Positions 13,984-54,103 of a stretch of 64,000 bases of DNA are shown here, in pieces. The DNA is from Oryzias latipes (taxonomy: Eukaryota; Chordata; Actinopteri; Beloniformes; Adrianichthyidae), in assembly GCF_002234675.1 (NCBI RefSeq), contig NC_019866.2, positions 15,095,261-15,159,260 of the forward strand, given 5' to 3'. Each line of letters opens with the position of its first letter. Position 1 is the first letter of the stretch. The translations under genes were made by a program, and so were the position numbers. The notes below the pieces were generated by a model, which made no database searches, had not been told where the DNA came from, and worked only from the letters and a program-made list of their open reading frames with translations.

Positions 13984-14028
13984 CTAAAAAGAATGAAGGA
14001 GACAAAAGTAAAAGTCCATTCTTTAATA

Positions 14029-14588: not shown

Positions 14589-14625
14589 TATTTATTGATC
14601 ATTTCCAAATCAGTTCTGTTTTTAC

Positions 14626-14910: not shown

Positions 14911-15002
14911 CTGATTAGAATGTAGAGAAAAACACATGAAGGATTCAGTCAGTGAAGACATTTGTTAGATTTCTGCTTTTTCTAGAAAAGAACCATTCTC
15001 AC

Positions 15003-15328: not shown

Positions 15329-15415
15329 CTGCAGAACCTGAAGGATGACAGCAAAAAAAACATGCTTTTTAATACTATAAACTGCAGTGTTTTGTTTTAA
15401 AGTTGATCTTCTCAC

Positions 15416-15706: not shown

Positions 15707-15781
15707 CTGCAGGAATCAAATATCAATGACCTTCTGATAACACTGATCAAAATAGTGATTCAAGTGTTTCCTCACACTTAC

Positions 15782-17000: not shown

Positions 17001-17052
<52 letters not shown>

Positions 17053-17053
17053 T
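17001..17053. repeat. TTTC microsatellite at duplication breakpoint
   Basis: A run of TTTC units (about 12). The other delta block ends in a shorter TTTC run (23807-23841), after which the sequences diverge, so the right-hand breakpoint of the duplication lies in this tract. Confidence 0.9.
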
Positions 17054-17330
17054 AATCTCAAAGCAGCGACTCGAAGCACAAAGAATACAAAACGATCCCG
17101 TGACAGACACTGGGTAGAAGGAACTTAAATACACAGCAACGATGAATAACAGGTGTGTGAACAGGTGCAATTCACAACAGAAGTAAAGGTGGAGGCAACA
17201 CAAACGGGAGAAACCGGAAGTAACCAAAATAAAGGCCCAAAAAAGCCGGAAACCCCACAACCAATCTCGAATGCGAAACAAACTAACCCACCCTGGCCCC
17301 TGAACCTCACAGATTCTTTCTTTTTTCACT
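17054..17330. other. Unique sequence, possibly retroelement-derived
   Basis: A G/A-rich stretch with GGAGAAACCGGAAGTAACC and similar motifs, unlike the surrounding AT-rich introns. It reads like a piece of an LTR-type repeat, but I found no ends or coding sequence. It abuts the mu TM2 exon. Confidence 0.3.
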
Positions 17331-17334
17331 TTTT

Positions 17335-17343
17335 TCATTTGAT
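17335..17343 (-). CDS. ighm: IgM membrane exon 2 (TM2), last coding codons
   Basis: Acceptor CTTTTTACAG followed by ATC AAA TGA. Placed after TM1 (phase 0 exit) it gives a K-I-K-like tail, the same as the delta TM2. Distance and phase fit; no transcript evidence is available. Confidence 0.65.
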   Translation of the reverse strand: MK

Positions 17344-17929
17344 CTGTAAAAAGAGGAAAAAACTTTTTTAATGATAATAATAAAAGATCTGTTCAACAAT
17401 GTTTAGCTGTGAATTTCATCTTTGTCACACATCATAATGTACTGATTAAAAAATGTCAACAAAAATGTTAAAAAATAGCATTAAAGGTTACTTTTTTCAT
17501 TAGTTACTTTGAATAAAACTATTTAAAAAAAGAGAATGATGAATAATTATATTTACAAATATTAAATCTTATCCAGATTGCATCAAATATATATGTCATT
17601 TTCATTGCTTTAAAAAGATTACAGGAAAAAAGAAAAAAAAAACATTAAAATTATATCTTTTATCAACTTTTTCATTTGACATTTTCAGCCTCAGGAATGA
17701 TGTAGACATATTTATAAAAGCTTCTGAAGGTGAAACATGATTTTTATTTTCTGATGATTTCGAGAAATTGTCAAAACAATCTCATCATGTTGAGCAAATG
17801 AATAATAAATTGTTGTAACTATAATTCACAAAATATGTATTTTCAACTTTCAGTTATGCAATACACCTTAACTCTTAAAAATATATTTTAATGCTGACTT
17901 TGTAATAATTTAACCTCTTTTAAATTTAC

Positions 17930-18075
17930 CTTTGACAATGTGGTTCCAACAGTGAACAACAAAGTCATGATGAAGAGGAAGATGAAGGTCAGGGCTGTGT
18001 TTGCCATGTGATCTTCCTCTACTTCCATCTCCTCTTTGCAGGAGCAAACAGTTTCATTCAGAAACTCTGGTGGGA
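17930..18075 (-). CDS. ighm: IgM membrane exon 1 (TM1)
   Basis: This exon encodes an acidic linker (PPEFLNETVCSCKEEMEVEE) and a transmembrane helix (ALTFIFLFIMTLLFTVGTTL), ending SK at the donor GTAAAT. It enters in phase 1 after the acceptor TTACTTTGCAG and leaves in phase 0. In teleosts this exon is spliced to an upstream C-mu exon, bypassing C-mu-4, and in medaka a membrane IgM with only two constant domains has been reported. All C-mu exons here end in phase 1, so several joins are possible. Confidence 0.9.
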
Positions 18076-18825
18076 CTGCAAAGTAACAAATCAATGAACT
18101 GTTGGGATCATCCACACTTCACAGACTGTTCCCAGTATTTCTAGAATGCTCCTTTTCTAAGTCAACACTAGAACCTGTCCTGTCCCAAAGAGCAAAGTGG
18201 CTTTAATCTGGAATGGCATCAGTTAGTGTCTCTACTGTGAATGTCCCATCATCTTCAACTGTCCTGCATGTGTTTACATGATCCTGATCAGTGTTTTCTC
18301 CTTCATTCAGTCAGCTAATGATCCTGACTTGTTATTGAGAAACGTCATTCTTGGTTTGGTTTGCATGACTTGGCTTGTTAGTCAGTAAACTCACAGAGTG
18401 AGTCTGTTCAATAACTGAGAGACCAGAGTTAGAGGATTTGTCTTGTTGGGGGTGCAAGACCCAGTAGAAGACACACAGACACACAGACACACACAAGCTT
18501 TGTTAACACTCTGCTGGAGAATAAGACAAACACAATATTGTTGTATTCAGGAAGATTGTGGTGTTCTGGAGAGTAAAGTGTGATGCTGAAAGATCAGTGT
18601 GTTCAAAATGTACACTAGTGTAACAGTGTCTCACATCACAGCACTGTGACTTCATAGAAAGTCAAACTTTTATACTTTTAACAACAACAGGAAGAGCAAA
18701 CAACAAACATGAACAGTGTTTTTTTATTTTTTTTTTAGTTTTTAATCTGCAATCAAACACAACACAATGACTCATCACAAAGTACAAACAAGAAAGAAAA
18801 CATAGACAACAACAAACAACATCTA
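18076..18825. other. Spacer between secretory and membrane mu exons
   Basis: Contains short CA-rich stretches (about 18470-18500) and presumably the secreted-form poly(A) region near 18700-18825. No other gene is seen. Confidence 0.5.
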
Positions 18826-19214
18826 CTACGCCTTGCACTTTTCAGAGATGTTCAGGTTGAGGTTGACCAGGTTGTTTTTATCAGCTGTGCTGAAACCAAT
18901 GGATCTGACAATGGATCTGGTGGAGTTGGTAATGGACTCGTGGTAAACAGCACAGCTGTACACCACACCAGACTGTTTCCACTGATCATCTGTGAGGGTT
19001 AACTGGCTGTAAACCAAGTAAGATCCTTCTTTCTCTACTGGACTGGTGGTACTGGTCTTGTACTTTGAGTCTACTACATCATCATCAACAAGCCAAGCTA
19101 CGAAAACCTCCTCAGGGAAGAAGTCTTTCACAGAGCAAGTCAGGGTCACCTCTTTGTTTTTAGCATGTTCTACAGGAGGCAACATAAACACTGAAGGACG
19201 CTGAACATGTTCGC
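18826..19214 (-). CDS. ighm: IgM C-mu-4 with secretory tail
   Basis: A C1-set domain beginning EHVQRPSVFMLPP, with cysteines in VTLTCSVKDFFP and YSCAVYHES and tryptophan in FVAWLVDD. It is followed without interruption by the secretory tail, which contains the N-glycosylation sequon N-I-S and the penultimate-region cysteine (ISEKCKA, stop at 18826). That cysteine is used for polymerisation of secreted IgM. Acceptor GGTACTTGCAG (start 19214). The tail makes this the terminal exon of secreted IgM. Confidence 0.95.
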
Positions 19215-19334
19215 CTGCAAGTACCAGAAAACAGAGGAAATAAACAACTGACTGACACAACTGTCATCATTTGTTCTGACTGTAAAGGATTCAAAATATT
19301 TGTGAATGTCAAAATGTAGAAGAAGTGATCGTAC

Positions 19335-19649
19335 TGTTTTGTCTCTTGTATTGGATCTTGAATGGGAAAAGAATGTCTTTATGTTGGACAACACAGTAGC
19401 GTTCGACTCCCTGATGCCATTCATCATATGTGATGTCAAGCACAAGCTCCTCCTTCTTTTTTAACCCTTCAGTCTTTACAGTTCCAGCCATTTCTACGTT
19501 ATCTTCATTCTCCCAAAAAATCTTTTCAAGCTGACCGTTATTTACTTGAATTTGGCATGTTATTTTTCCACTTTGCTTTACAAGAATGTCCCTGTATGTA
19601 GGGCCAATGATATTTATGTCTACAGCTGCCTGAGTACATCCTGCACTTC
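19335..19649 (-). CDS. ighm: IgM C-mu-3
   Basis: The frame opens GSAGCTQAAVDINIIGP after the acceptor TTCATTCAG and contains cysteines in KITCQIQV and ERYCVVQH and tryptophan in KIFWENED. An extra cysteine near the N-terminus could link heavy chains. Donor GTACGATC after 19335, 315 bp, phase 1-1. Its open frame lacks a methionine near its start, so simple ORF calling shows only part of it. Confidence 0.88.
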
Positions 19650-19724
19650 CTGAATGAAGGACAAATGAAAAGTTATCGATCAGAACCTAGATGTTCAATC
19701 ATTGCAGCTGGATGTTCCACTTAC

Positions 19725-20075
19725 CTCCAGAAGATTCTTCCTTGTAGGTGGCATTAGCCTTTTCCAACACGTCAGTATTGTTCACACCTTTCCCCTTGAA
19801 CACACATGTAAATGTTGCTCCAGAAGTCAGCTCAGTGGGGTTTACTGTGAGCAAACTTGCTGCAGAATACAGCTTAGCTCCATTTGTGTCATTTCTTCCC
19901 TCTGAGAAAACACTGGTCTCATCAAGGATGCTGGCTTTTTCACTGCCAACTTTCTGCCAAATGATCTCATGGGTCCTAGGAGAAAAATCTTTGGCAAAGC
20001 AGTAGAAAGAAGCCTGTTGCTTTTCCTCATCAAGGGAAAAACTTGTTGTGAGATTGGGCGACCTAAACAGCACAT
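19725..20075 (-). CDS. ighm: IgM C-mu-2
   Basis: A constant domain starting VLFRSPNLTTSFSLDEEK, with cysteines in FYCFAKDFSP and FTCVFKGKG and tryptophan in EIIWQKVG. Acceptor GTTTTTCAG (start 20075), donor GTAAGTGG after 19725, 351 bp, phase 1-1. It is separated from C-mu-1 by 3.9 kb that contains five delta exons, a highly unusual arrangement. Confidence 0.93.
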
Positions 20076-20951
20076 CTGAAAAACAAACACATACACAAAC
20101 AGATTTTTGCAGAAGCAAAGAACTTTTTTGTGCAAATATATATGCAGAACCTCAGAAAATGACAGTTTTTATAGTATTGAAGATTTTTAAAAATAATAAA
20201 AGACTTTCAGGAAATTGATAATTATGATGCTCCTTAAATAAATTTTAATATTATGATTTTGTTGTGACTTTAATGTGAGGCTTTGTAAATCATGGGAGAG
20301 CATTGATACCTACTTCTGCATATACACTGACAATGGCTGGAAAGCAAACATATATTTAAAGTCATTGTTAATAATGTTAATTAACAGCAAACAGTGAAAC
20401 AGAAACAAAGGTCACAGTTATGAGGAAGATTATTCAGAGACATAAAAACACAGAAACAAACTGCTTATCTGTGAAGGTAAATACAGACACTGAATGTCTT
20501 TTTTTTAACTCCACTGTTTTATTTAGTAAATTTGTGCAAAAGGAAATTTAAAAATTTCTTTTAGATTACTGATATTTTTTTGTAATAAAACTTAGACATT
20601 TTTTCTTTCCTTCATTAAATCTATATGATAATTTTTACATTTACAGAAAATGCCAAGGAAATTATCAAATAAGTCCTTAAAATTGGGTATATAATAAAAT
20701 ATAATAATGATACAGTAATTAAAGTTTATTAATATACAACATTATAGAAGTTAAAATGACTACTAGAGAGACTATGATCATTAATCTTTAATTATGTCTA
20801 AAACTCTATTTTACATTGAAAAATGTGTTTGATAAAAGAATATCTAAATATAAATACATCAATTACAAAAGCTTTAATTTCTTAAGGTCTAAATTATACC
20901 AAAGCAAAGAATCAAATTTAAAGTGTTGCCAAAATTTTCAGTTGTTTCTTT
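20076..20951. other. Intron sequence between delta-5' and C-mu-2, no gene seen
   Basis: Strongly AT-rich, without recognisable coding or repeat structure. Confidence 0.6.
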
Positions 20952-20983
20952 AAAATACGGTATTTATTGATCATTTCCAAATC
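20952..20983. repeat. Stray MITE end plus delta-intron piece at the duplication junction
   Basis: The stretch (key bases AAAATACGG TATTTATTGATC) matches 14580-14611, the right end of the MITE and its flank inside the delta-4/delta-5 intron. Here it directly abuts the left end of the delta block, so it marks a recombination junction that involved another, MITE-bearing delta block. Confidence 0.8.
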
Positions 20984-21052
20984 CAAAAATGTTTGGAGGA
21001 AACCAATGGAGCTTTTAGGAATATTGACTCTGAAAATGAACTGTAATCTCAC

Positions 21053-21370
21053 CAAAAACATCCTTTATACTGCTTTCAAATGGACTGTTGGAGGATTCAT
21101 GTCTCACAACACAAGTATAAGTTGACTTCTTGTCATTAGTTTGAGACACATTCAGTCTGCTGCTCATTGAATAAGAGCTGCTGTCTGGATCCTTGAATGA
21201 AGGACTGTTAATGTAACGAGAAGATGAGAGTTTCTGACCATTCTCCTTCCAATGCACCGAGATGTTAGATGGGAAATAACCAGAAACTAAGCAGGTTAGT
21301 GTGAGAATGTCAGACACGGAGAGTTCAGCAGCACTTGGTTCCACAATCCTCACAGTTGGAGGATTAAGGT
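21053..21370 (-). CDS. ighd: IgD constant domain delta-5 (upstream copy)
   Basis: Same 318-bp phase 1-1 exon as 13666-13983, with the same splice sites (acceptor TTTTTAG, donor GTGAGA). The next acceptor downstream on the - strand belongs to C-mu-2, about 1 kb away and also phase 1. A mu-delta-mu hybrid would therefore be in frame. Confidence 0.88.
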
Positions 21371-21450
21371 CTAAAAAGAATGAAGGAGACAAAAGTAAAA
21401 GTCCATTCTTTAATATTTATTGATCATTTCCAAATCAGTTCTGTTTTTAC

Positions 21451-21735
21451 CTGAACAGAGGCTGATGTCCTTTCTGTCACGTTTATTTAGAAACCTGTCA
21501 AAGACTTCACAGGTGAAGGTCTTCCCTGTTTTCCACTCTGTCTGAAGAACATCCAGTCGACTGATTACAGTCACACGTCCATTTGTATCCATGCTGATGT
21601 CTGTGCTTGATGCTGATTTGGACTCTGAGTCAGAAAACCAACTAATTTGTGGATTAAAGCCTGATGCAGAACACAGGAGTTTGTGTTGTCCTGACTCTTT
21701 ACTGGAGACCTGAAGGACTTCCACTGATGGATCCA
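21451..21735 (-). CDS. ighd: IgD constant domain delta-4 (upstream copy)
   Basis: 285-bp exon, acceptor TCTAATCAG, donor GTAAAAAC. Twin of 14626-14910, with SDSESK instead of SDSVSK. The intron to delta-5 has the empty MITE site. Confidence 0.88.
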
Positions 21736-21827
21736 CTGATTAGAATGTAGAGAAAAACACATGAAGGATTCAGTCAGTGAAGACATTTGTTAGATTTCTG
21801 CTTTTTCTAGAAAAGAACCATTCTCAC

Positions 21828-22133
21828 CAAAAACACTGATAGCTTTGGACTCAAAAGACTGGCTGGAAAAGCCTTGATGGACTTTGCAGGTGAAACTCTG
21901 GTCACTCTTCCAGTAGATGTGAGGAACAGAGAAGCTGACACTGACTGTATGTGAGGCTGGAGCTTCAGGAAGATCAACATACTGTTTGTCAGAAATGTCA
22001 GCTCCTTTGGACTGAAGTGTGACATAGAGGTGCTGTGAGGAGAGCTGTAAAAGGTCACAGTGCAGCTTCACATCATTGTTTTCTGTCTGCAGGTCTGACA
22101 GAGATCTCCTGATGTCCACCTGAGGAGCTGAAA
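21828..22133 (-). CDS. ighd: IgD constant domain delta-3 (upstream copy, intact)
   Basis: 306-bp exon with an intact frame. Cysteines lie in VKLHCDLLQL and FTCKVHQGF; the usual core tryptophan position reads YVTLQSK, so the domain lacks a canonical W there. Acceptor TTCTGCAG, donor GTGAGA. It is the reading-frame reference for the damaged downstream twin (15003-15328). Confidence 0.9.
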
Positions 22134-22222
22134 CTGCAGAACCTGAAGGATGACAGCAAAAAAAACATGCTTTTTAATACTATAAACTGCAGCGTGTTTT
22201 GTTTTAAAGTTGATCTTCTCAC

Positions 22223-22513
22223 CTGAAATCTCTACAGTCTTCTCAGCAGAAAAGCAGTGATGCTGAACTTTACATTTCAGAAGTTTCAGGTTTTTCCAGC
22301 TGCTGGATGGAACTGTCAGTTCACTGATTAAAGTGGTTTTGTTTGAGAATTCATTCACTCTGTCAGTGGATGGTTGTTCCCTGTCCATCAGCCAGACCAG
22401 CTTAGCAGCAACATTGTGGATGAAGCATCTAGCTTTCACATCAGAGTTGGTCATCATCACTGTCTTGAAGCTGGGAATCTCCACATGAATGGAAGGAGGA
22501 TTGAATCCAAAGA
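22223..22513 (-). CDS. ighd: IgD constant domain delta-2 (upstream copy)
   Basis: 291-bp exon, phase 1-1. The protein matches 15416-15706 over the full domain (core landmarks KARCFIHNV, LVWLMDRE, LLKCKVQHH), with the same acceptor and donor. Confidence 0.88.
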
Positions 22514-22588
22514 CTGCAGGAATCAAATATCAATGACCTTCTGATAACACTGATCAAAATAGTGATTCAAGTGTTTCCTCACACTTAC

Positions 22589-37912: not shown

Positions 37913-37920
37913 CAATTCTG

Positions 37921-38892
37921 GGTAACACTTTATAATAAGATTCCTTAACAAGCTTTGTTAACGCATTAATAAGCATTATAATAGAAATTTTAGGGTGTTA
38001 GTAAGACATTTATTAGTACAATAAGTCTAATAAGGTTTATTAAAGTACTTAGTTAACACATTTACAAGCATTATTATTAGGATGTTTTTAAGATGCTAAT
38101 GATTCATTTATTGACATTATAGATGCCTAACAAATCTGTCAGTGTTAATAAGCTTAATAACATTTATTAACAACCTTTGTTAACAAATTAAGAAGTATTA
38201 TTTTTGTTTGGGGTTCTAGTAAGACATTTATTAGCATTATAGATGTCTCATACTAACCTTAGTGTTAATATGCTTAATAGGTTTGATTAGCTAACTTCAC
38301 TTCCATTAGCTAACTTCCATTATCAATGTGCAAGATGCTAGTAAGATATTTATTAGCATTATAGATGTCTTGCAAATACCTGATAGTGTTAATAAGATTC
38401 ATTAATATCTAAAGTCAGACTATTGTCTTCAAAGTCCACATTACTAAACTGCTTAAGAGCTTAACAAACGTATTAACTAACTTTGTTAGCAGTTTATTGA
38501 ATGTTTTGCAGCACCTCAACTAAAGTGTGACCAAAGTCCACATTACTAAACTGCTTATAAGCTTAACAAACGTATTAACTAACTTTGTTAGCAGTTTATT
38601 GAATGTTTTGCAGCACCTCAACTAAAGTGTGACCAAAGTCCACATTACTAAACTGCTTATAAGCTTAACAAACGTATTAACTAACTTTGTTAGCAGTTTA
38701 TTGAATGTTTTGCAGCACCTCAACTAAAGTGTGACCAAAGTCCACATTACTAAACTGCTTATAAGCTTAACAAACGTATTAACTAACTTTGTTAGCAGTT
38801 TATTGAATGTTTTGCAGCACCTCAACTAAGGTGTCGGATGTTTTTACCACAAACAACCACAAAGCATAAAGCTTGTAAAAAGAACTTTATAA
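37921..38892 (+). repeat. Left terminal inverted repeat of Merlin
   Basis: About 970 bp matched by the reverse complement of 43944-44911, from GGTAACAC to AGCTTGTAAAAAGAACTTTA. Much of it is built from short variants of TTAATAAGCATTAT-like motifs, and its inner part holds four 102-bp tandem units (about 38430-38838). Confidence 0.93.
38430..38838. repeat. Four 102-bp tandem units in the left TIR
   Basis: Units begin with CAAAGTCCACATTACTAAAC at about 38430, 38531, 38633 and 38735 and are almost identical. The first differs slightly (CTTAAGAGC for CTTATAAGC). Mirror-image units occupy 44000-44404. Confidence 0.92.
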
Positions 38893-39052
38893 CATTAAAA
38901 CAGACTAAACATACAAAAATCTTTCTGTAAAAGAAATATAAAAATGAATTCAGTCACAATTTCAAACTACGGTAAATAAATAAGGCATCGAGAAATAAAG
39001 CCAGATTGTTTTGACAATCAATTTTTAAGTCTAACTGAAGTAAATCAGTGAA

Positions 39053-41310
39053 TCACTTGTACTTTTTTTTTATATCATGAAGTAACCTTCCAAGGATGCC
39101 ATTACTGTGTTTTTTAGCTAGCCACTCGTTCCACTCAATCACACACAGGTGCTCTTGTAAAAGGTTTTCGGTTCGATTTCCTCGAAGCCTCCATACTTTT
39201 TCTTTGTATGTCCGCCATGCCCTTTCAAGGTGTTGTGTGTGAGCACCAGTGTGTGCATCTACGTATGTCTGACTGTGATTGACAGTGTAGTGTTTGTATC
39301 CAAGTGCTTGGAGCACACGGTATGCTCGCCATTCATCACTAATGATAGTAGATCCAGGTTTTACATGGTGTGCAATTAGAGGCACAAGTTCTGTGCGACT
39401 TCTTTTTTCAACAAGTCGCAGAACTGGCTTTCCACTCCTCTGGCCACGAACTCCCAGCATGCCAAAAACCCATTTCTTCCTCTTCCATGCTCCTGACAGT
39501 CTTCCTCTTCCATACTGTTTGAATGAATAGAGAAGGAAAAAAATAATTTAAGTACGGTTTATACAAATGCCTGGCTTATGATTTTTTTAAAAAGAAAAAC
39601 AGAACATAACTAACTATTCAGGAATAAATATTGAGATATTCAGTATATGCACAGATTTACTCAATAAGGAATTGTTAGTCCTAATTTTTATTGCTCACTT
39701 ATTATTAAAAGATTAAGATAGTGTTCTGTGATCCATGGAATATGCTCAGGGGATATAAGGACACTGCTCAAATTGATCCAAATTCAACATTTTTGAAACT
39801 TTTGAAACAATATGGTAAGTTAACAAGTTTGACTGACACACACACTTAATTACACATTAAATAATGCATTGCCTTTACCTTTCTTTTATGTCTGAAGTGA
39901 CTCTCATCAATGACAACAAATTCATGTTGTCCACCAATGATTTGTCCATTTCTTAATCTCATTCGTTCCACGGCCGTTGTGCAGACCTCACGTATTTTTT
40001 TTGCCATCTTGGTGAGTGTGGCTGAACTTGCTGCGATGTCATCCTCTATCATGTCTATCTGTCGTAGACGCAAACCTTGGGAAAACCTAAGGACAGACAA
40101 AACAATTTTTCTCAACTCATGCCCCGAGTAAAGAAACACGGGATAAAATGGTATCAAATCAAGCTACAATAAATCAATAAATTCATTGAAAAAAAAAGTA
40201 ACTATGAAATTTTTACTTAATGGCCCTTGAAAGGCTCCATACTAAGCCACATCAAGATGTAATAAGGGCCAAAACCATGTGAATCCTCGAGAAGCAAATC
40301 GGATTAAAACTAAGTTTAACCTATAAAATTTCAACAAATTTAGCTCTAACCAGCATTGTGATGCTTATTTTATTATTTTACATAGCATAGGCTTAGACAA
40401 GTTTCATTTCTTGGTAAATTTGTCCAACTTTCAAAAGTAATGCACTGTCAAAGTGAAAGTAAAACAGTTAGATTTATATGTAAAATGTACTTAAATAATT
40501 TTGATCTGTCAAATAATTTAAGTTTTTATCTTTACCAGGTGCTAGTTGTGAAACAGAGATACATATGTCATCACGTTGAGCACGTCTGGAAATACGATTT
40601 TCTTTTTCCCTCCAGTTTTTGTTTTTTTATGCGGTTATACAGACTTCAGAAGTAAGTCTTCCATGAAATATGCTATGGTGGATACAAATAACCATGGTAT
40701 CTGTTGCTTTTTTTTCCTCTGAGTTTAACAACAGTGAAGCTGTACAGCTTAAACAAAATAATTGTATTTAAATTGCTATAGATTACAAGTGAGATCTAAC
40801 TGGCCGAAAGGAAAATTACAAGTACATAGCCACTAGTTGTAGGTATACAGTACCACCTTGTGAATGGTGTATATGCAGAGTAGAGAGTCACATGATAGAC
40901 TACATACCTAAATATGAACTGCATCCAGTCAAAAAGGGATATTTTAGAACGCTGGAACAGAGACTTGTATCTTATGGACTTTACACTGTTTCTTCCTCTA
41001 TGTGCGGCCCGCTGACATGTCCTGCAGAATAAAAAAATATACACAAAAAATCGGTATTCATCATAATCACATTTTTGTTAATTTGTAATAACTATAGTTC
41101 TCATTGATTGCATTTCAAGAAGAACCTAACTTACCAAGTGTAATGATCTTTGGTCTTCCATTTCTTCAACTTCATTCTCCTTAAGCAGATGCTGCATTTC
41201 ATTTTCTGCCTTAGAAGCTTGTTTTTCTGCATCCATTTAATTAGTTTAAGGGTTTTTCTTTTGGATCTGCCCTCAAAAATTAGCTTCCGTAATTTTTTTA
41301 CCAATGTCAT
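39053..41310 (-). CDS. Merlin transposase (4 exons, 319 aa)
   Basis: Exons 41310-41135, 41021-40908, 40086-39879 and 39514-39053 join in frame through GT/AG sites to 960 nt including the stop. The start (MTLVKKLRKLIFEGR) follows an A-rich context. An N-terminal zinc-ribbon-like part (CSIC, then a later cysteine and histidine) precedes the segment SLFQRSKISLFDW typical of ISXO2/IS1016-type transposases. The catalytic acids lie in FVVIDESHF (exon 3), IISDEWRAY (exon 4) and HTQHLERAWRTYK, giving D, D and E, with the family's VNHSQTYVDAHTGAHTQ block in between. The enzyme would cut and join the GGTAAC ends in the nucleus. It is transcribed divergently from the cargo gene. No lesion was seen. Confidence 0.9.
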
Positions 41311-41665
41311 TTTTTTCTTTCAAGAATTTTACAACTGATTTAAATTTTCTGGCTTCTCCCTCCAAAATGCCTGCACTTGCTGATCAAATCAACGTCAACG
41401 TATCGCCACTACCGTAAGAGCTCTAGGAAACATGCAGTGAAATTAAACTTTACTAACCTGTTGGCAGTTCACATTAACATAGTGCGCTTGCGCAATTTTC
41501 AGAGTTCTACAGTTTGGTACTCTGATCTGTATTTTTTTTAAATAACCTTTATTGAACCCTCTGATCGGTCACTGCTTTGGTAGATGTAAGGTCCTTTTGC
41601 GCATGCGCAGAGTGATAAGGTCGCCGTTAGAGTTTGGGGTGCTACATCTTCTTTAACTAGCCACC
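41311..41665. promoter_or_regulatory. Bidirectional promoter of the Merlin transposon
   Basis: 355 bp separate the two start codons. It contains the perfect palindrome TGCGCATGCGCA (41598-41609), the NRF1 consensus, and a one-mismatch version TGCGCTTGCGCA (41483-41494). There is no TATA box at a convincing distance for either gene. The right-hand gene has an ideal start context (GCCACCATG). Confidence 0.75.
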
Positions 41666-43747
41666 ATGTCTTTGCCACATGCTAAAAGCAGCAGCATAAT
41701 TAATACTCGCTCTAGAGTAAGAACGGAGTTAACCAACCCGGAACAGAAGAAAAGAAAAAGGAAGCAAATGGACCATGCTAGTAGTGAACCTGGTAAGTTA
41801 CTTAACTTTTTTTTTTCAACTCTTAGTCTTTCCCCAAGTTTCACACATTCACGTAAATTCTCAAACAAGGTCATCCTTCTAACTTCAGATGCAAAAATCA
41901 GGAGTTGCGATATCTAATTCATGCTTGAGTACTTCCGCGAAAAAAGGAAAGGAGTCCTGGCGCGTGCAGGCAACAGCTGGGGGGGGGGGGGGGGGGTCAG
42001 TCACCTCTTGCATGGAGCTTCAGAGAAGCCTCATTCGTGTATAAAAGGTTTGTTAGTTACATAGTCATTAAGTTTACTTTTTAGAGATATGATGAACTTA
42101 AAATAGTAAAATAAAGTCGTTTTTTCCACTCCTGACATTGCACCAAATTAAGAGGACTTTATTTTTCTGTCAAGTAAAAAATGTTCATAATAAATGGCTT
42201 GCTACAATCATTGATATACATTTTAAATAACAGTTTGCTATTCTTCTGACACAGATCAAGGTACAATGTCACCAACTGCACAGCTTTCATTAAAAAAACA
42301 GCAGCAAGAGATACAGCTGCTGAAGCAAAAACTGCTGAGTCAGCAGGAAGTTATTGAAGAGCTTTCAACAGAAAGAGACTTACTAAAAGAACAGCTAAGT
42401 ATGTCTAAGCAACACTTGATTGTACTGGCATTGTTGTGATTTCTCTTTGGGATAGTAAAATATTAAAAATAACAAATGTGTTCAATTGTTACATCAATAT
42501 ATTTGTTTTGCAGCACAACAGCCTCCTCAGCCATCATCAAGTGTTGTTGCACTGCGTGGGAAACGGGACAAAACACCTCACATGCAGTCAAGTTCTTCAG
42601 AGTCAAGCAGTACTTCGATATCGAGTGACTCATCATTTGATTCTTCATCTGACTATTCTTCTTCTGACGAAACTACAAAGAAGAAGAAAAGGAAGAAGAA
42701 GAACAAGAAGAAGAAAACAAAAATAATGAAAAAACACAAGAAAACAGACAGGGCTGGGGAAAAGACACACAACAAAGCTTACAGAGATGTCAAGAGAGGT
42801 AATTACAAATATTGAACTTTTTAAAAAATACAAGAAGTTTTTCGCTTCTTTGTAAAATATTTGCAATTTTCTGTTCCTTAACAGAAAGGCAACAACACAA
42901 AGTGAAATTAATTCTCTTTATTATGTATTTGATGCATAATTATGTTGGGTATGCAGACTTTAGCCCTTTTTTTAAAAGAATTAGTCATCAGTTTAACTTT
43001 AACACAAAAACCTCTGAACTTTTGCCAGCAAAAGGTTGTGGGTGTGGCCGACTTGAGTTGTGGATTACTCTTTCGTGTACATTAGGCAAAACAATGTGCA
43101 ACTTGCCATTTTAGTGGTACAAATAGTTTTGTGGCCTGGAGAAATTGGAAAATGTTCAGACATGCATCAGTTTAATAGTAAACCAAACACTTCAGGCACA
43201 TTTTGATATAACATTGAAAGAGAGTGGGAAAACCACAAAAAATTATTTTAGATAATATTTCATATTCAAGAAAAGAAAAATGTTATGATAAGTAGTCTTT
43301 GGTAGGGGGGTCTGTCTAGCTTATTTTTTAGATGATTTAGAAAAACCGGATACAAATAAAAAACAATAACAAAAGAATGAATGAATGTTTTGCATAACTA
43401 TTAAAAATTGCCTTTTTTATGTTTCAGCTCGTGATCCAGATGACATTGTGGAGAGGTACACCAAAGTTTTAAAGGCGTTTAAAAAAGGACTCACCATGTC
43501 CGGAGCTTTCCAAAAAGTGGGGGTGGACCGAAACACAATAGTCAACAACGCTCCAGTTGCAGAACTTGCCATCGCAGACCAAAACAAATTCTCAGAGCTA
43601 AAAAACTGTCACTTGCCCAATGACAAGCTGAGTGATTTCATCAAGTCTTGCATCGAAGAAATAAAAGTCAATTCAGAAATTGGAGAAAAAATCAAACAAC
43701 TAAAAGCTAATGGGCAGTTACTGCCCATAGGCAAGGGCAGGTTTTGA
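41666..43747 (+). CDS. CCDC106-like nuclear protein carried by Merlin (4 exons, 291 aa)
   Basis: Exons 41666-41792, 42255-42398, 42514-42798 and 43428-43747, all joined in phase 1 through GT/AG sites, give 876 nt with stop. Exon 1 encodes a basic nuclear signal (KKRKRKQ). Exon 2 encodes a leucine-rich coiled coil (LLKQKLLSQQEVIEELS). Exon 3 encodes a serine-rich acidic stretch followed by a lysine block (KKKKRKKKNKKKK). Exon 4 encodes a conserved helical domain (DIVERYTKVLKAFKKGLTMS, VGVDRNTIVNNAPVAELAIA) ending LLPIGKGRF. The last domain resembles vertebrate CCDC106 and many fish CCDC106-like proteins. Its role in transposition is unknown; DNA binding or recruitment of the transposase is conceivable. 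The intact frame argues for recent selection or recent insertion. Confidence 0.85.
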
Positions 43748-43943
43748 AAAGTTGTTTGTAAACATCTGTTAGTTTCGAAGAGTTCAGAAAAGGTTTAAGT
43801 TTTTCTCACTTGTTATAATGTTCTTTATTTAAAGTTTGAAAGTGATTTCATTTAGTTTATATTACAGCATGTTTGAAAATGTGTAGATTGTTTTTATTGT
43901 TACAGAATCTTTTTTTTAATATTTCAGTTGCCATGTTATATAT

Positions 43944-44911
43944 AAAGTTCTTTTTACAAGCTTTATGCTTTGTGGTTGTTTGTGGTAAAAACATCCGACA
44001 CCTTAGTTGAGGTGCTGCAAGACATTCAATAAACTGCTAACAAAGTTAGTTAATACGTTTGTTAAGCTTATAAGCAGTTTAGTAATGTGGACTTTGGTCA
44101 CACTTTAGTTGAGGTGCTGCAAAACATTCAATAAACTGCTAACAAAGTTAGTTAATACGTTTGTTAAGCTTATAAGCAGTTTAGTAATGTGGACTTTGGT
44201 CACACTTTAGTTGAGGTGCTGCAAAACATTCAATAAACTGCTAACAAAGTTAGTTAATACGTTTGTTAAGCTTATAAGCAGTTTAGTAATGTGGACTTTG
44301 GTCACACTTTAGTTGAGGTGCTGCAAAACATTCAATAAACTGCTAACAAAGTTAGTTAATACGTTTGTTAAGCTCATAAGCAGTTTAGTAATGTGGACTT
44401 TGAAGACAATAGTCTGACTTTAGATATTAATGAATCTTATTAACACTATCAGGTATTTGCAAGACATCTATAATGCTAATAAATATCTTACTAGCATCTT
44501 GCACATTGATAATGGAAGTTAGCTAATGGAAGTGAAGTTAGCTAATCAAACCTATTAAGCATATTAACACTAAGGTTAGTATGAGACATCTATAATGCTA
44601 ATAAATGTCTTACTAGAACCCCAAACAAAAATAATACTTCTTAATTTGTTAACAAAGGTTGTTAATAAATGTTATTAAGCTTATTAACACTGACAGATTT
44701 GTTAGGCATCTATAATGTCAATAAATGAATCATTAGCATCTTAAAAACATCCTAATAATAATGCTTGTAAATGTGTTAACTAAGTACTTTAATAAACCTT
44801 ATTAGACTTATTGTACTAATAAATGTCTTACTAACACCCTAAAATTTCTATTATAATGCTTATTAATGCGTTAACAAAGCTTGTTAAGGAATCTTATTAT
44901 AAAGTGTTACC
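43944..44911 (-). repeat. Right terminal inverted repeat of Merlin
   Basis: Reverse complement of 37921-38892 with few differences. Its four 102-bp units lie at about 44000-44404. The cargo gene's transcript would end in or just before it. Confidence 0.93.
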
Positions 44912-44919
44912 CAATTCTG

Positions 44920-45313: not shown

Positions 45314-47979
45314 ATTTTATTTATTTATTTTTTTTTTTAACTTGTCCTGTCCAACAGCTAGGCAAACAGATGAGAGCTGAGGGCCTCTTGTGTTGGACAT
45401 ATTTTATTTTAACAAGAGGGGTTATTCATCTTCAGACAAACCAAAGGTATGTCTGAATAAACCCCTTTTGTAATTGAGGCCAAACTTTATTAATTTCAAT
45501 CATGTTTGAAAATCTTTGGTGTTGGACCGGACGGAAAAGGAAAGAGGGGAAGAAGAGAGAGGGACGTTAGAGAGAGGGGGGGTAGGAGGGTGATAATAGG
45601 AGGGGAAGGTGGGTAAGACCATGAAGCAGCATAGAGCAGACAGGTTTACTGGTTGTTTATCGTTACGGTACGGTTCAAATGTAGTACAAAAAGGGCGGGG
45701 CCTGTTCACACACACTCAAATATTATCAACACACCTGCTAGCCGCAAAAATGTCCACATGTCAACATGCACACAAAACAGATAGTGTTCACGAACGCATA
45801 CCTATGCCTTTAAACCAACTAGTGTGAAATCTTTCATTCATTCAATCATGCAAACTATTAGTGCAAAGGTGAGCTAACACCTGTGCTCAGGTGAGTGTTT
45901 ATGTTCTTCTAAAATGGATGGTGGAATGTGAAAAGAAGGAGGAGGAGCGCCCAGCCACCCCCACACCCATACCCCCGCCGCAGCAGCAGCGGCAGCCGGA
46001 ATTCCCCCAACGCCACACGGGAACAGGCAGGGAACAACCGCCCCCCGGGCGACCAAGACCGCCACCCAGGCCAGGGCCAGCAGGACCGCCGCGAGGCCCC
46101 CAGAGCCAGAGAGCAGGGAGGCGCAGAGGGAAAGAGAGCGCCGCCCCAGCCCAGCCAGGAAAGCAGCCCCCCGCCGCGCCGGAAGAGCCCAACGCAGGGC
46201 CCCACCGGAGAGGGACGCCCACAGCCCCAGACGAGCACCCCACCACCACCCAGGAGTTCCGGGCATCCCCCCGCCCCGACCCCAGGTACGAGCCAGGACC
46301 CCCCAAGGGAGACTCGCTCCGCACTCCAGGCAGCCACCCACCCGGCCCACGGTTGGTCCAGGTAGGAGCAAGGCAGGGGCCCGCCGCCCCCGCCCAGGAG
46401 GGGGGAACCCCGGGGAAAAAAGGGCGGCCCACAAGGGATGTTATAAATATGGCCCGACCAGGCTCGGCCATGTTGGAAGTTTGGCGGGGCCCAGCGCCCA
46501 GGGGCAAGGACCAGGACCCACCCCCCAGGGACACGAACACCCCCGGCTCAGGTGTAATATGAACCCCCCCACCGTGCGGAGAGAGCACCGCCGGGCCCAG
46601 GGAGCCGGCACCCAAGGGACACGGCCGCCATCGCCAAGGGGCCCGCACCCCCCACCAGGGAAGGGGTAGGGGACAGATGGACCCAGGTCCCACCTTCCTT
46701 GTAAAATGCGTGTGCGTGTATGGGTGTTTGAGAGGGTGTTTGTGTGCATGTGTGTGTGTTTATGTTTGAATGTATATATTGAAGGGGGAGGGGGGGGTGT
46801 ACTAAGGGGGGTGCAGTTAAAATTGGCGAGTAGGGCACTAAGGGGACATCTCCTGATTACTCACAGTGATGTCCCCTCACCCTCCACACCAAGGGGCCCT
46901 AAATGTCTAAGGTGCGGTTAAAATTGGCGGGTAGGGTGCCAGGAGGACATCTGCTGCTTGCTTGCAGTGATGTCCAAGCACCCCCCCCTACCAAGGACCC
47001 TACATGTCTAAGGTGCAAATAAAACCGAAAGAGGGGGGGCCCACTCCATACGGCAACCATAGGAGGGGGGCCACTCCCAAGTAGCCCCCCCCCAAGGCGC
47101 ATCCCAGGCTAGACCCCCCACCCCCTCACCCTAATATGAGGTTATATAAGGAAGGGGGTAAGTTGGGGACAGCTGGTAGACTGTCCCCCGGTGGTCAAAC
47201 AGCCGTCCCCCAGCCCACCCCCAGCAAAGGGGCCAGGGCCACCCAGCCCAGGGGCCCACCCCCGGAGGCGCCGACACCCCAGGCCCGGCACCACCCACCC
47301 CACACAGAGAGAGAGGAGCCAGAAAGCGTCGCCCCCCCCCGGAGCAAGCCCAGGCCCCCACCCCCAGACGCCGGCCCTAGAAGAGCTCTGTTCAGGCCTC
47401 CACGGGACCGAGGAGGCCAACCGGCCGAGGCAACCACTGATTGCCTCAGCGGAGACCCCGACCCGCTAGCCCCCCCGACCCGTACTAATAATGGGCCCCC
47501 CCTCCCCCCCAGAACGCCCCCCCACAGGACAGGGCCGACAAGCCCCCCACCCCACCCCACCCCAGACCCCGCAGCCGAAGCGGGTGACACCCAGAGCGAC
47601 CGGGGGCCCCGAGAGGGTTGTCCCGTCCCGTCCCAGAGCCAGGGAAGGGCCGATCCCAGCCCCAGGTGCAGATGGGCAGCCCATCCGGCGCCGCTGGGCC
47701 CCCCCCACCCGAGCAGGGCCCCCCGCCAACCCCCCCAGCACAGGCAAAGGGACCACCCCCCCAAGCCAAGCCAGACCACCACCCCACCCCCCCACCACGC
47801 ACCCCCACACCCAAGCCCAGAGGACCACGCAGCGCCCCAGCCCGCCCCACCCAGGCACCGGACCCGACCCCCCGACCAACGGAGCCCCCCACCGCCCCCG
47901 CCAGGCACCGGAAGCCCCGACCCCCACCCCAAACCACGGCAGAAGGGCAAGGAGCAGCGACGACCAAGCCCTCCACCCC
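45314..47979 (-). other. L1 3' UTR, strongly G-rich on the sense strand
   Basis: About 2.7 kb between the ORF2 stop and the A-rich tail. From 45930 to 47980 the sense strand is dominated by runs of 3-8 G. Long open frames on both strands here follow from the base composition and are not genes. It includes a tandem pair of ~105-bp units (46810-47012, each with GTTAAAATTGGCG and CAGTGATGTCC) and a GT-rich stretch (46710-46770). Confidence 0.8.
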
Positions 47980-49443
47980 CTAAGTCATGGAGTCAACCAC
48001 AGGAGACCAGAGAGACTGAATTCTTTCAAAGTTACTTGAGCTTTGGGCTGACATTTTTTCCAAGCTGATATGATCAAACAGCAGATTTCTGTGTTGACTT
48101 ATGTTTATATTTTTCTTGTTTTTCCAATTTATTAAAATAGTTTTTTTGGCAATACAAAGAGTTATGAAAATGATAGATGCTAATCCTTCTTCTATATCGA
48201 TGGCACTCATGTCACCAAGCACACAAAATGACGGTGAGGCAGTGATTGAAACCTTAAGCCAGACTGATAAATCGGCACATACCTGCTGCCAGAGAGCCTG
48301 GACAGGAGTGCAGAACCACAGTGCGTGCATGTAGCTGTCGGGTAGATTATTATCACAGTGCTCGCAAATGTCTGAGTTACTGAGACCCATCTTGAACATC
48401 CTCTGTCCAGTGTAGTAAATTCTGTGAAGAGTTTTGAGATGGATTAGCTGCAGATTTGGACTATTTGTCAGTTTAAAGGTGTTTAGACAAAGTTCTGACC
48501 AGAAGCTTTCATCTGTGCTGATGCTCAAATCTGCATCCCATTTTTTTGTTGGAAGGGCAATATTGTTATCTAAATTACATAAAAGTTTGTATATTTTGGA
48601 GAGAGTTCTATTCATTGAAAAATTAATCAGAGTGGTAACTACATCTGGTAGCTTTAAATCGTCGTCTTTAATTTTATACTTTTTAGTAATAATTGATTTA
48701 AGTTGCTGATATTCCAAGAAGTTATTTATTCCATGTTTGTCTTGAAGTTCCTGGGGGGTTATGAATCTTCTATCAATAATTACGTGCTCTAGTTGTTTTA
48801 TGCCCCCTGCTTGCCAAGCTGGGAAGTGAATCATTTTTTTGTTAATAAGGATGTCCGGGTTGTTCCAGATGGGTGTCATTTTGCACGGTTGAATTGATGA
48901 TTTTGATATTTTGAGAAATTCCCACCAGGCTGTTAAGGTGGCATTTATATTAATGCTTTTGAAACAATCCTGTTTTTTAACTGTTTGGCTAATAAATGGT
49001 AGCTGTGACAGGTTGATCTTTCCACATAACACCTGTTCCAAGTCTAACCATGAGTTGGTTTCTGGATTATTTTTTAACCATTTTAAGATATATTGTAATC
49101 TATTTGCAAGAAAGTATTTGTGGAAATTAGGTAGTTCTAATCCTCCACAGCTTTTTGCAGATTTTAAAGTTTTTAGACTAATTCTTGCAGGTTTGTTGTT
49201 CCATAGAAAGCTTGATATGGATGAGTCTAATGTTTTGAACCATTTTAATGGCGGTTGTGTGGGAATCATTGAGAAGAGATAATTAACTTTGGGTAAGATT
49301 TTCATTTTAACCGTGGCTACCTTGCCCATAAGGGACAGAGGCAGGTTGGTCCAGCGTGTTAGATCGTCCTGTATGCTTTTCAGTAACGGGGTGTGGTTTA
49401 GCTGCACCAGTTCTGATAGTTTGGGGGTGTTGGAAAATATAAT
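47980..49443 (-). pseudogene. L1 ORF2, C-terminal part
   Basis: Continues the reverse transcriptase thumb and C-terminal region (KLSELVQLNHTPLLKSIQDD, LPLSLMGKVATVKM, SCGGLELPNF) and ends with a CCHC-type motif (CEHCDNNLPDSYMHALWFC) typical of L1 ORF2. The frame is open to its stop at 47980. The 5' join to the RT core is broken by the insertion at 49445-50261. Confidence 0.9.
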
Positions 49444-49444
49444 C

Positions 49445-50261
49445 TGTCGCTTTGAGATTACTTTCCTTTGTTGCATGTTCAATAAAGTCGAGAAGAAGAA
49501 AACCACGGGATTCGGCCGGATTAAGTTTAACAAATTTATTCCCTAACAATATTTCTAAAAACAGAGTAAAACAAAATAAAACAGATCGATCTGGGTGTCC
49601 AAAATCAAGGCCTGCAATACGCAAGAGGTTACATTCCGAATTCACATGCAGCTTGTCTGGAGACACAGGAAAATTCCTTGAGTTCAGACAAGCATGTGGT
49701 CAGAACATCCTCCCCCGGGAGCAAGATGGCCGCCGAATCTCCGCCTCTGGTCGCTGGAGATTGGCTGACAGAGGAGCCCGCCTACTTCCTTCAGCCCATG
49801 TTAGGAGTTACAGCATTTGGTCCTAGCTTCCTGCTTCAAACGTCCAGGGGGGTTATTTCAAAGACGGACCACTGTCCGACCACCAACAGTGTCCCCATGG
49901 GGCTCCAGCACAGTCGCCCGGATCCTTCTCCGCAGGCAATCAGTCCCAACTCTTTGTCCTTTTCATGTGAGTTGACACCTTCAGGGGGTTCCCATGAATT
50001 GAATTGAATCCTGGAGACAATTTAATTCTGGTCCATGTCAGATCTACAGTTAAGGCTTCCAGATGGTCTTAGAAGATCAAAGACTGTTTTCTCCTGAAGG
50101 GGGTTGGAGGTTGGAGCTGCATTCCTGAAACCTCTTTACATATGCAATTATCAGGAAGTCCCTTTTAATTGAAATGACTGAAACCCACACACAGTAAACC
50201 AGAAAGAAAACCTTCAATGAAATAAAATGAAGATAAAAACCTAGGAGAAATGAGAACCACA
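49445..50261. mobile_element. 0.8-kb insertion in L1 ORF2, type unresolved
   Basis: It separates the RT palm (FSPEG...) from the continuation (IFSNTPKLSEL) of one ORF2. It has TG...CA ends on the + strand (TGTCGC at 49445, CCACA at 50261), as a solo LTR would, and an AATAAA at about 49482. I could not define a clean target-site duplication, so the class is open. Confidence 0.6.
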
Positions 50262-51768
50262 AAAAATAAATTCCTTCAGGGGAAAAGTAGATACCCAGAT
50301 ATTTGATATTTCCTGTTTTAACTGGAATTGTGAGTCTTTGTTCCATATTCCTGTTGAGTGGTAATAAAACAGACTTATTCCAATTAATGGAATAGTCTGA
50401 TATGGAGGAGAATTCATTTATGATCATTGCTGTTTCATTTACAGAATGTAAATTCCTTAAAAACAGTAATATGTCATCCGCATAAAGACTAATTTTATGA
50501 TGGCTGTGTTTGGTTTTTATTCCTATAATGCTCTCATTCTGTCTTATTGCTGCAGCTAAAGGCTCAATGAATATAGCAAAAAGAGAAGGAGAGAGTGGGC
50601 AGCCCTGTCTGGTTCCTCTTCCAAGAAAAAACCTGTTTGAAGTCTGTTTATTAGTTCTAACTGATGCATTGGGGTTGTGATATAATATTTTGATCCAATT
50701 GATGAATGCTACTCCAAAACCAAACTTATGGAGGGCAGCAATAAGGAACTTCCAATTAACTCTGTCAAAGGCTTTTTCAGCATCCAGCGTTAGTACCGTC
50801 ATTTCCTGGTTTTTAATGGTGGCAAAGTCTATTATATTAACTAGTCTACGAACATTATCATCCGAGTGTCTGCCTTTGATGAATCCAGTGTGGTCGAAGT
50901 GAATTATGTGAGGAGTGATTTTTTCTATTCTCTGTGCTAGTGCTTTGCAGATAATTTTTACATCTGCATTGATTAGAGAAATAGGGCGATAGCTTGAAGG
51001 ACTAGTGGGATCTTTGTCTGGTTTTAGAAGAAGAATTATGTTGGCTGAGTTCATGTTAGGTGGCATTGATTGGCTCTCATTAATAGATGTGACAGTTTTA
51101 TAAAATGTTGGTGCCAGTTGTTCCCAGAATTCTTTATAAAACTCAGCAGGAAAGCCGTCAGGCCCTGGTGCTTTACCATTGGGCATAAGTAACAGAGCTT
51201 CATGAAGTTCAGACGGCGAGAGCGGAGAATCTAAGTTTGTGATTTGATCCTCATTTAGCCTGGGTAGGTTTACATTATTAAGAAATGAGTCAATACTTTG
51301 CTCTGACGGATTGATCTGCGGTGTGTACAGGTTTTTATAAAAGTTTTCAAATGCGTTATTAATTTTGACCGGGTCATGGGTGACATTTCCTGTTTGGTCC
51401 ATAATAGAGGTTGATGATTTTTCTCTGTTAATTTTAAGCTGATTAGCCAGAAATTTGCCAGATTTATTAGAGTTTTCAAATCTTTCAAGTCGTAGCCTTT
51501 GTATTTGAAATTGTGTTTGTTTATTAATGATGTCATTTAACCGCAGCTTTAAATTTTTCAGATCTCCCAGAATGTGTTCCTGTGCAGAAGCAGCATAAGC
51601 AGTCTCCAGGGTTTTGATTTTATTTTCTAATTCTAATAAATCTGCTTTCTCTTTGCGTTTTTTGTGCGTTGAATAAGAAATGATTTTCCCTCTCATGCCT
51701 TTGCTGTTTCCCAAAGAACGCACGGTGGGATGTCTGGAGTATTGTTGAAGTCTAAGAAGGTTGCCCAC
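50262..51768 (-). pseudogene. L1 ORF2, reverse transcriptase part
   Basis: Contains the L1-type RT blocks NGKAPGPDGFPAEFYKEFW, SYRPISLINADVKI, GFIKGRHSDDNVRR, LTLDAEKAFDRVNW, GTRQGCPLSPSLFAIFIEPL and the active site SLYADDILLF. It is out of frame with the endonuclease part upstream (51693-52571): one shift lies near 51690-51770. Codons after FSPEG belong to the inserted segment. Confidence 0.92.
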
Positions 51769-52571
51769 TCTTTTTTAAAGAATTCAAGAAATTCCTGGTC
51801 CTTTAACAGAGACGTATTAAACCTCCAGGTTGTACCAGAGGGTGTGGATTTTTCCCTAGAAATGTTTACAGAGACTGGTGCATGATCACTGATAATAATT
51901 GGATGGATATTGGAGCTTTGAATATTTTTTAAAAGAGAGTTACTGATTAATAAATAGTCTAAACGGGAGTGTGAATAGTGAACTGGAGAAAAAAAGGTGA
52001 ACCCTTTAGTGCTTGGGTGACATGAGCGCCACGCGTCGCAGAGACCCAGATCATTCATGTACTGCTTTAGAATACTTGCAGATCGCCATGTACGCTGGTT
52101 TGCTGCTGTGCTGAGTCTGTCAAGTTCAGGGTCCAAAACAAGGTTGAAGTCTCCTCCTATAATGATTGTGGAGTCCGAGTGGACTGAGAGTGAGGTGAAG
52201 AATCTGTGAAAGAAGGAAGAGTCGTCAACATTAGGACCATAAATACTCACTATACAAAAGTCCTTATTCTGAATGGATATATTAATGATTACAAATCTGC
52301 CTTCTGGGTCAGTAACTGTATCCTTATGAGTAAAATTAAGATTTTTATTAATTAAAACAGCAACTCCTCGTTGTTTGGAGTTGTAACTGGCAGAGTATAT
52401 AACTGGAAATTGTAAGCAGCACATAAGGTGATTCAAAGAATTCGATAAATGGGTCTCCTGCAGTAGAGCTATATCTGCTTTTAGACCATCCAGGTGATTT
52501 AACACTTTCAGTCTCTTTGGCTCAGAGCCAAGTCCACGCACATTCCAGCTAACGATGTTAAGACTGTTCAT
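51693..52571 (-). pseudogene. L1 ORF2, endonuclease part
   Basis: An apurinic/apyrimidinic-type endonuclease domain: MNSLNIVSWNVRGLGS, LLQETHL, SIYGPNVDD, IIGGDFNLVLDPELDR, SRLDYLLIS and IISDHAPVSV, with the usual N, E, D, H catalytic residues present. It nicks the target site for retrotransposition. It runs out of frame just before the RT domain. Confidence 0.92.
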
Positions 52572-53097
52572 AACTGCTCTGACTGAAAAGGTGTAAAGCT
52601 AAGTAGTGCTTGTGTACCAGTCCGTGTGCGCGTGCCCGCATTGAGAAGCGCTGTGCGCGTGAACGTTTTCTGGCTATGTGAGCTGCGTGTCGCGTGCGTC
52701 CTATGAGAGCCTGTGTGAGGTGATTGCAGTATGTCGGCGTGTGTGTGCGGGATCGCATGTGCACGCCCGTGTGTGCGCTTGTGTGTGCGCGCGCCCGTTC
52801 CGTGCATAAATAAATACTTACCGAGGATAAGTTGCTTCCAAGTGATTTACATATAATGAGGGGGGAGAGGGGGGGGGAGAGTAAAGGAAAGAAAAAAAGA
52901 GATAGAAGGGAAAACGAAAACAACAACAAAACAACAATAGAAACATCAGTGGGACTGAGGTGACGAAGAAAAAAAAAAGACTGTTTTCCTGCGATCGAGG
53001 TGTGGATTATTGATGATCCGGTTTTCCATTCATTGAAGTAAGTTTAGCGGGTTTCTTCTGGGCAGCGCAGATGTTCTCAGCGCGGATCTGAAAGCCT
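52572..53097 (-). other. L1 inter-ORF spacer
   Basis: Unusually long spacer between ORF1 and ORF2, with an alternating GTGTGCGCG-type stretch (52615-52800) and a polypurine run on the + strand (52858-52910). No coding sequence. Confidence 0.7.
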
Positions 53098-53871
53098 TCA
53101 GCACAGCCAGGGGGTGATCTCCGGGTCCCGGAACAGCCGGCCGTCCACGTAAAGTTTGTCAACGGCCACAATCGCTCTCGAACCAGCAGCAAGATGCTTC
53201 CTCCTCAGCGGGAACAGGATCTTCCTTCTGCGGAGGATTTCTGCCGGGAACTGGTCATTCACGCTGTAATGCGTGCCTCTCAGTTCCCGTCCGCGGCCCT
53301 TCACCAACTCCTTCTGTTTGAAATGTTCGAATTTAGCCACAATAGGACGCGGGCGCTGGTGGTCGGACCTTCTTCCTCCGAGGCGGTGAACCCTGTGGAA
53401 AGAGATCTTCTGCACCTCCTCCTTGGGGAGTTTCAGGTGGACCTCTAAAAAGGATCTAACGGTGGCCTCGGGGTCTTCTCCTGCCTCCTCTGGAACCCCC
53501 GCGACCACTAGATTGTCCCTCATGCTCCTCGACTGAAGATCCAGGAGGGTTTCCTTGATGGATCGGTTCTCCTCGGAGAGACGGGCGGTGTCATTGCCCA
53601 GGGTCTTCACGGTCTCTCTGAGGGCCTGGTTCTCCGCTGCGAGCTCCCGCACCTGCTGCTGGCTGAATTCCAGAGACTCCCGCAGACCTTGAAATTCTCT
53701 ATGGAGGATCTCCAGCAAATTGAGGTGGCCATCAAAGCTGGAGAGCTTTTTATCAATCGAATCCAGGATATCGCTCATTCCGCTGCCCGGAGAGGACACA
53801 GCCCCGGGAGAGTCCTCAGGCCGTTCACGCTTGGCGGAGGGGGTGGTGGTGGCGGTTCTGGGCTTCACCAT
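53098..53871 (-). CDS. L1 ORF1 protein (257 aa, intact)
   Basis: The frame shows the three-part build of L1 ORF1p: a coiled coil (about residues 33-115, e.g. QQQVRELAAENQALRETVKT), an RRM-like core (RDNLVVAGVPEEAGEDPEAT, then FHRVHRLGG and RPIVAKF) and a C-terminal nucleic-acid-binding domain (HYSVNDQFPAEILRRRK). The protein coats the L1 RNA. It has no stop or shift, in contrast to ORF2. A diverged fragment of the same gene is at 9700-10095. Confidence 0.93.
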   Translation of the reverse strand: MVKPRTATTTPSAKRERPEDSPGAVSSPGSGMSDILDSIDKKLSSFDGHLNLLEILHREFQGLRESLEFSQQQVRELAAENQALRETVKTLGNDTARLSEENRSIKETLLDLQSRSMRDNLVVAGVPEEAGEDPEATVRSFLEVHLKLPKEEVQKISFHRVHRLGGRRSDHQRPRPIVAKFEHFKQKELVKGRGRELRGTHYSVNDQFPAEILRRRKILFPLRRKHLAAGSRAIVAVDKLYVDGRLFRDPEITPWLC

Positions 53872-54103
53872 GTTGCAGGTATTAAAACACTCGTCAATGA
53901 AATTCTCCAGGTCCTCCAGGCTGACAGAAGCTTAATACTCTTAACAGGTTATGTTAGTTAGCAGGAAATATTTTAATATGGCGGAAAAATGAAACAAGAT
54001 CGAAAATGTTTGTTCAAATGCTTACGCGCCGCCAAGTCGACTCACCACACTCGTCTCGCTGGGTCTCGCGATACTACAGCATCTCGCGATCAAAATCAAC
54101 ACT
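53872..54103 (-). promoter_or_regulatory. L1 5' UTR with two TCTCGCGAT boxes
   Basis: The element's 5' end is fixed by the target duplication at 54104. Within the first 40 bp lie TCTCGCGAT at 54064-54072 and 54082-54090 (+ strand view), close to the TCTCGCGAGA-type promoter palindrome of TATA-less genes. They probably act as the L1 promoter core. Confidence 0.6.

Follow-up and report, generated by a model that had tools for sequence, protein, structure and literature searches.

A CCDC106-like gene paired with the transposase in Merlin transposons of the medaka genome

Introduction

The Merlin superfamily of DNA transposons is described by a single transposase. What, then, is a second, CCDC106-like gene doing inside a Merlin element in a 64,000-nucleotide stretch of medaka DNA (Oryzias latipes, contig NC_019866.2, positions 15,095,261 to 15,159,260; hereafter the window), which belongs to contig C8 in a genome of 734 Mb and 25 contigs? 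An earlier note on the window had proposed that this gene encodes a second factor belonging to the element. We find that the two-gene form is the rule among the medaka loci found by the Pfam transposase model, that the window holds such a two-gene Merlin transposon and, as fairly probable, that its CCDC106-like protein, predicted to bind DNA, helps its own DDE transposase to move the element.

A complete element with two divergent genes

The element begins with GGTAACACTTTATAATAAG, ends with the complement of GGTAACACTTTATAATAAG, and is flanked on both sides by the 8-bp duplication CAATTCTG that had been described earlier (Table 1). Its terminal inverted repeats (TIRs) are perfect over the outer 535 bp and continue, with two mismatches (positions 536 and 891), to a length of 971 bp, so the earlier description of exact inverted ends is valid for the outer 535 bp and fails beyond them. 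A repeat search reported 973 nt, since the match runs by chance into the final two bases of the left duplication. The arrays of 102-bp tandem units within both TIRs are an addition to the earlier description.

Each gene is spliced from four predicted exons with GT/AG borders, and both intact frames proposed earlier were reproduced (transposase, 960 nt, 319 aa; CCDC106-like, 876 nt, 291 aa). The spliced proteins are identical over their full length to the Oryzias latipes database proteins P0030 (transposase) and P0001 (CCDC106-like), which rules out a splicing artefact. The transposase matches the Pfam domain DDE_Tnp_IS1595 (73.5 bits, cut-off 27) and a zinc ribbon (26.1 bits, cut-off 25.3). 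Residues D157, D226 and E263 of P0030, with 68 and 36 residues between them, are those we take to be the DDE catalytic triad, and the motifs SDEWRAY and HTQH(L/I)ERAW are common to the transposases of the families that we denote A, B and C below. The second protein matches Pfam CCDC106 (PF15794; 155.6 bits, cut-off 30.2) over profile positions 2-219 of 220.

Recurrence of the gene pair in medaka

We counted a locus as paired when a CCDC106-like match lay in divergent orientation within 12 kb of the transposase; all medaka locus counts are lower bounds. The Pfam transposase model PF12762, a search independent of the window protein as starting query, found 21 medaka loci, and 19 of them have a divergent CCDC106-like gene 2.6-7.8 kb away. 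The two others are C18:22.88M and C1:21.57M; at the former a weak 29-residue match to P0002 adjoins the transposase (L023, E 3.3e-4) and was left uncounted.

The window transposase as query gave 113 matches in 41 clusters, and the CCDC106-like protein gave 70 matches in 37 clusters; the latter come from the window-protein query, so distant CCDC106 copies fall outside the counts. With all fragments included, 24 of the 41 transposase clusters have a divergent partner; in 2 the partner is oriented otherwise, and 15 lack one. Among clusters with at least four matches the partner is present and divergent in 19 of 20 (exception, C21:14.36M). Uniform placement predicts about 0.05 paired clusters of 41, which rules out chance adjacency.

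Ends were inspected in eight two-gene copies. In six of these, from four diverged families, both genes lie between paired GGTAAC ends that are bordered by identical 8-bp duplications. They are the window element (family A, 6991 bp), the copies on contigs C6 and C14 (family B, ~8.84 kb), the copies on C10 and at C9:8.69M (family C, ~7.4 kb) and the copy at C9:22.1M (family D, 7.8 kb). The family D copy has intact ends and a transposase that is probably broken, because its transposase matches change frame. A second family A copy at C21:13.69-13.70M (L009/L016) is 93-98% identical to the window in the aligned pieces and bears an insertion nested in its last CCDC106-like exon, with both flanking exon parts recognisable; its far end was searched for and not found. 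The remaining copy, on C19, is degraded. Last-exon matches in the genome, compared with the window proteins, show 74-77% (transposase) and 62% (CCDC106-like) identity in family B; the corresponding values in family C are 70-74% and 44-45%. The earlier note had asked for the CCDC106-like frame to be sought divergently within the same TIRs in independent copies, and had warned that most copies might lack it; six medaka elements and 19 of 21 loci answer in favour of a second element-encoded gene.

Shorter relatives accompany these elements. A search with the element's initial 400 bases gave at least 45 genome matches, and six regions with ends of this kind contained no coding match to either gene. 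Four such copies (L011, L012, L013, L014) measure 1.6-4.1 kb, three of them with an identical 8-bp duplication. Separately, at C21:13252219-13261624 a family C transposase has a CCDC106-like last exon on either side, the two on opposite strands; this may reflect a composite insertion or an adjacent one.

Table 1. Features of the element, in window coordinates.
Feature	Position	Strand	Remarks
Two-gene Merlin element, complete	37921..44911	.	6991 bp
Left 8-bp target-site duplication	37913..37920	+	CAATTCTG
Right 8-bp target-site duplication	44912..44919	+	CAATTCTG
Left TIR	37921..38891	+	971 bp; starts GGTAACACTTTATAATAAG; 2 mismatches
Right TIR	43941..44911	-	971 bp
Tandem array in left TIR	38430..38834	+	four 102-bp units
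Tandem array in right TIR	43998..44402	-	four 102-bp units
Transposase exon 1 (predicted)	41135..41310	-	spliced protein identical to P0030
Transposase exon 2 (predicted)	40908..41021	-	
Transposase exon 3 (predicted)	39879..40086	-	
Transposase exon 4 (predicted)	39053..39514	-	bulk of DDE_Tnp_IS1595 domain
Gap separating both start codons	41311..41665	.	355 bp; likely shared divergent promoter
CCDC106-like exon 1 (predicted)	41666..41792	+	spliced protein identical to P0001
CCDC106-like exon 2	42255..42398	+	predicted long helix (coiled coil)
CCDC106-like exon 3 (predicted)	42514..42798	+	Ser-rich and Lys-rich
CCDC106-like exon 4	43428..43747	+	all-helical domain with predicted helix-turn-helix

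Constraint on both genes

We compared the conserved parts of the last exons between families by the Nei-Gojobori method, as synonymous divergence (dS) and the ratio of nonsynonymous to synonymous divergence (dN/dS). Between families A and B, the CCDC106-like exon has dS 1.14 and dN/dS 0.24, and the transposase exon dS 1.20 and dN/dS 0.09; between families B and D, the CCDC106-like exon has dS 0.54 and dN/dS 0.23. As dS above 1 is near saturation, and all family C pairs are saturated, we draw no dates from these values; they support constraint acting, between families, on the conserved stretches of each gene. A mirror-tree comparison of six pairs, two of them unverified at the DNA level and family D assembled from joined pieces, gave r = 0.754, a value equalled or exceeded in 13 of 720 label permutations.

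The predicted CCDC106-like protein

The predicted DNA-binding domain is the best conserved part across the CCDC106-like family. Two models predicted for the CCDC106 domain aligned best, among the chains compared, to the LEAFY DNA-binding domain. No sequence similarity to LEAFY was supported in a profile comparison (probability 0.5%, E 0.11), in which the LEAFY profile was built from 4 sequences. The CCDC106 profile against PDB sequences gave 11 matches (best E 4.6e-05); because the best stretches all fall in profile positions 18-161 of 264, we attribute them to composition or coiled coil and not to the C-terminal domain. Among the matches listed, no known transposon accessory protein was seen by name, an absence that counts as no evidence.

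Other fish

Searches with the CCDC106-like protein and with its alignment gave 29 and 46 matches, the organism names shown being those of fish, and 3 of the 46 lack a PF15794 label; the transposase search gave 151 matches, 120 of them listed. In the goby Mugilogobius chulae, the locus tags of one CCDC106-like protein and one transposase follow each other directly (WMY93_001884 and 001885), and their contigs have the same length; a second pair (019737, 015389) is non-adjacent. In the loach Triplophysa rosa both domains occur in one gene model. Epinephelus coioides, Umbra pygmaea and Metynnis hypsauchen have tagged entries for both proteins, none adjacent among the matches listed. The goby and the loach, as seen in protein records, give hints of pairing beyond medaka.

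A separate CCDC106 gene and the question of origin

A separate CCDC106 gene is also present in medaka (L054, C11:14.716M), and we take it to resemble human CCDC106. Its domain exons, once joined, match PF15794 with 169.4 bits, and its conserved domain is apparently split by an intron that the window gene lacks, according to the splicing predicted in this analysis. No element ends were recognised around it in the 6 kb examined (C11:14713500-14719500). It is one of 12 unpaired CCDC106-like clusters, another of which, C21:13.261M, neighbours a transposase whose partner is a different cluster. Four of the 12 were examined: the L054 gene, L056, which has remnants of element ends, and the fragments L053 and L055, with no element ends within ~6 kb.

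The earlier note had suggested that host CCDC106-like genes of fish may trace back to such elements. Three medaka proteins match element copies: P0001 and P0002, both named CCDC106-like, and P0009, whose annotation reads zinc finger CCHC domain-containing 10-like. L054 may descend from an element or be the source of the element gene. Capture of the gene by an element and domestication by the host fit the tree alike, and neither direction is favoured, because the tree is unrooted and has a single host leaf on a long branch.

Surroundings of the element

On the minus strand at 13628-22529 of the window, open frames resemble, by eye, immunoglobulin constant domains; the element may therefore lie within or close to an immunoglobulin locus. 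Between 28256 and 36398, also on the minus strand, neighbouring env-, integrase-, pol- and gag-like frames look by eye like an endogenous retrovirus, ~1.5 kb from the left end of the element. About 2 kb at 46000-48000 has a G+C content of ~0.7 between stretches of 0.36 and 0.40 and adjoins frames resembling long interspersed elements (47980-53931).

Discussion

We propose that both genes would be expressed from the short stretch separating them. The CCDC106-like protein would dimerise via its long helix, enter the nucleus via its lysine-rich stretch and bind repeated sites in the long ends through its helix-turn-helix domain, while the transposase, with its own zinc ribbon, would bind the tips and then cut and join. 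The shorter gene-less copies would likely be moved in trans through their ends. This division of labour is modelled on PIF/Harbinger, where two element-encoded proteins are needed and the partner is presumably a Myb-like protein; by that analogy a helper role for the CCDC106-like protein is likely.

The main rival to a helper role makes the protein a regulator, which would bind the ends or the shared promoter and set the level of transposase or shield the element from host silencing. We regard this as possible, if rather unlikely. Divergent genes just 355 bp apart, the predicted helix-turn-helix domain and long repeated ends that could serve as operator arrays all suit such a role, but ends of the same kind on gene-less copies fit end binding for movement equally well. 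The current data suit regulator and helper alike.

An action on the host, for example on the cell cycle via p53, by a CCDC106 copy captured from the host and favouring spread of the element, seems to us improbable. The separate medaka gene L054 offers a candidate source, and mammalian CCDC106 is reported to affect p53; conservation concentrated in the predicted DNA-binding domain speaks against it. We reject a passenger gene caught once by the window element, which nothing beyond that element favours, since the partner is present at 19 of 21 PF12762 loci, in four diverged families and, as hints, in two other fish, and protein-changing changes are fewer than silent ones between families.

On a wider scale, and doubtfully, these elements may represent an old two-component Merlin lineage of fish with an obligatory CCDC106-type end-binder bearing a LEAFY-type domain. 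The p53-linked CCDC106 of vertebrates would then be a domesticated second protein, and plant LEAFY would share the fold.

The Merlin superfamily gains a branch with a second, conserved gene. Some medaka gene models named CCDC106-like are transposon genes, and those of other fish may be the same. For CCDC106 there is now a DNA-binding domain that can be tested and a possible link to transposons. The copies with intact ends from several families are material for a direct test of the second protein. No published description of a Merlin transposase paired with CCDC106 was recognised among the matches listed, a scope that lies outside Repbase and subscription papers.

Comparison with known systems

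For the LEAFY/FLORICAULA proteins, the profile comparison above gave no support for sequence similarity of the DNA-binding domain. The CCDC106 family (PF15794) is matched along nearly its whole profile; the element protein differs in being encoded by a transposon, while L054 lies outside recognisable element ends in the 6 kb examined.

The medaka elements resemble Merlin (IS1016/IS1595-related) in their DDE_Tnp_IS1595 transposase, in the GG start (GGTAAC) of the six elements with resolved ends, in the target-site duplication, which is 8 or 9 bp in Merlin and an identical 8 bp in six of the eight copies, and in their internal tandem repeats, which occur in some described Merlin families according to the excerpted text of PMC8101967. 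They differ in their ends, ~0.7-1 kb against the 24-462 bp cited in that excerpt, and in the extra divergent CCDC106-family gene; an additional reading frame in a described Merlin was judged by its authors, in the same excerpt, to be due to chance.

KolobokP, as far as the excerpt of PMC9587614 describes it, is likewise a DNA transposon that encodes a second protein beside its transposase and has long repeats at its ends, but its second protein is a His-Me finger nuclease and its long repeats are direct, not inverted. PIF/Harbinger, whose mobilisation requires two element-encoded proteins (PMC2836001, in the part consulted), shares with the medaka elements both the two proteins and the presence of copies that lack genes but keep ends of the same kind. 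It differs in belonging to another transposase superfamily and in its partner protein, which in medaka is CCDC106-like.
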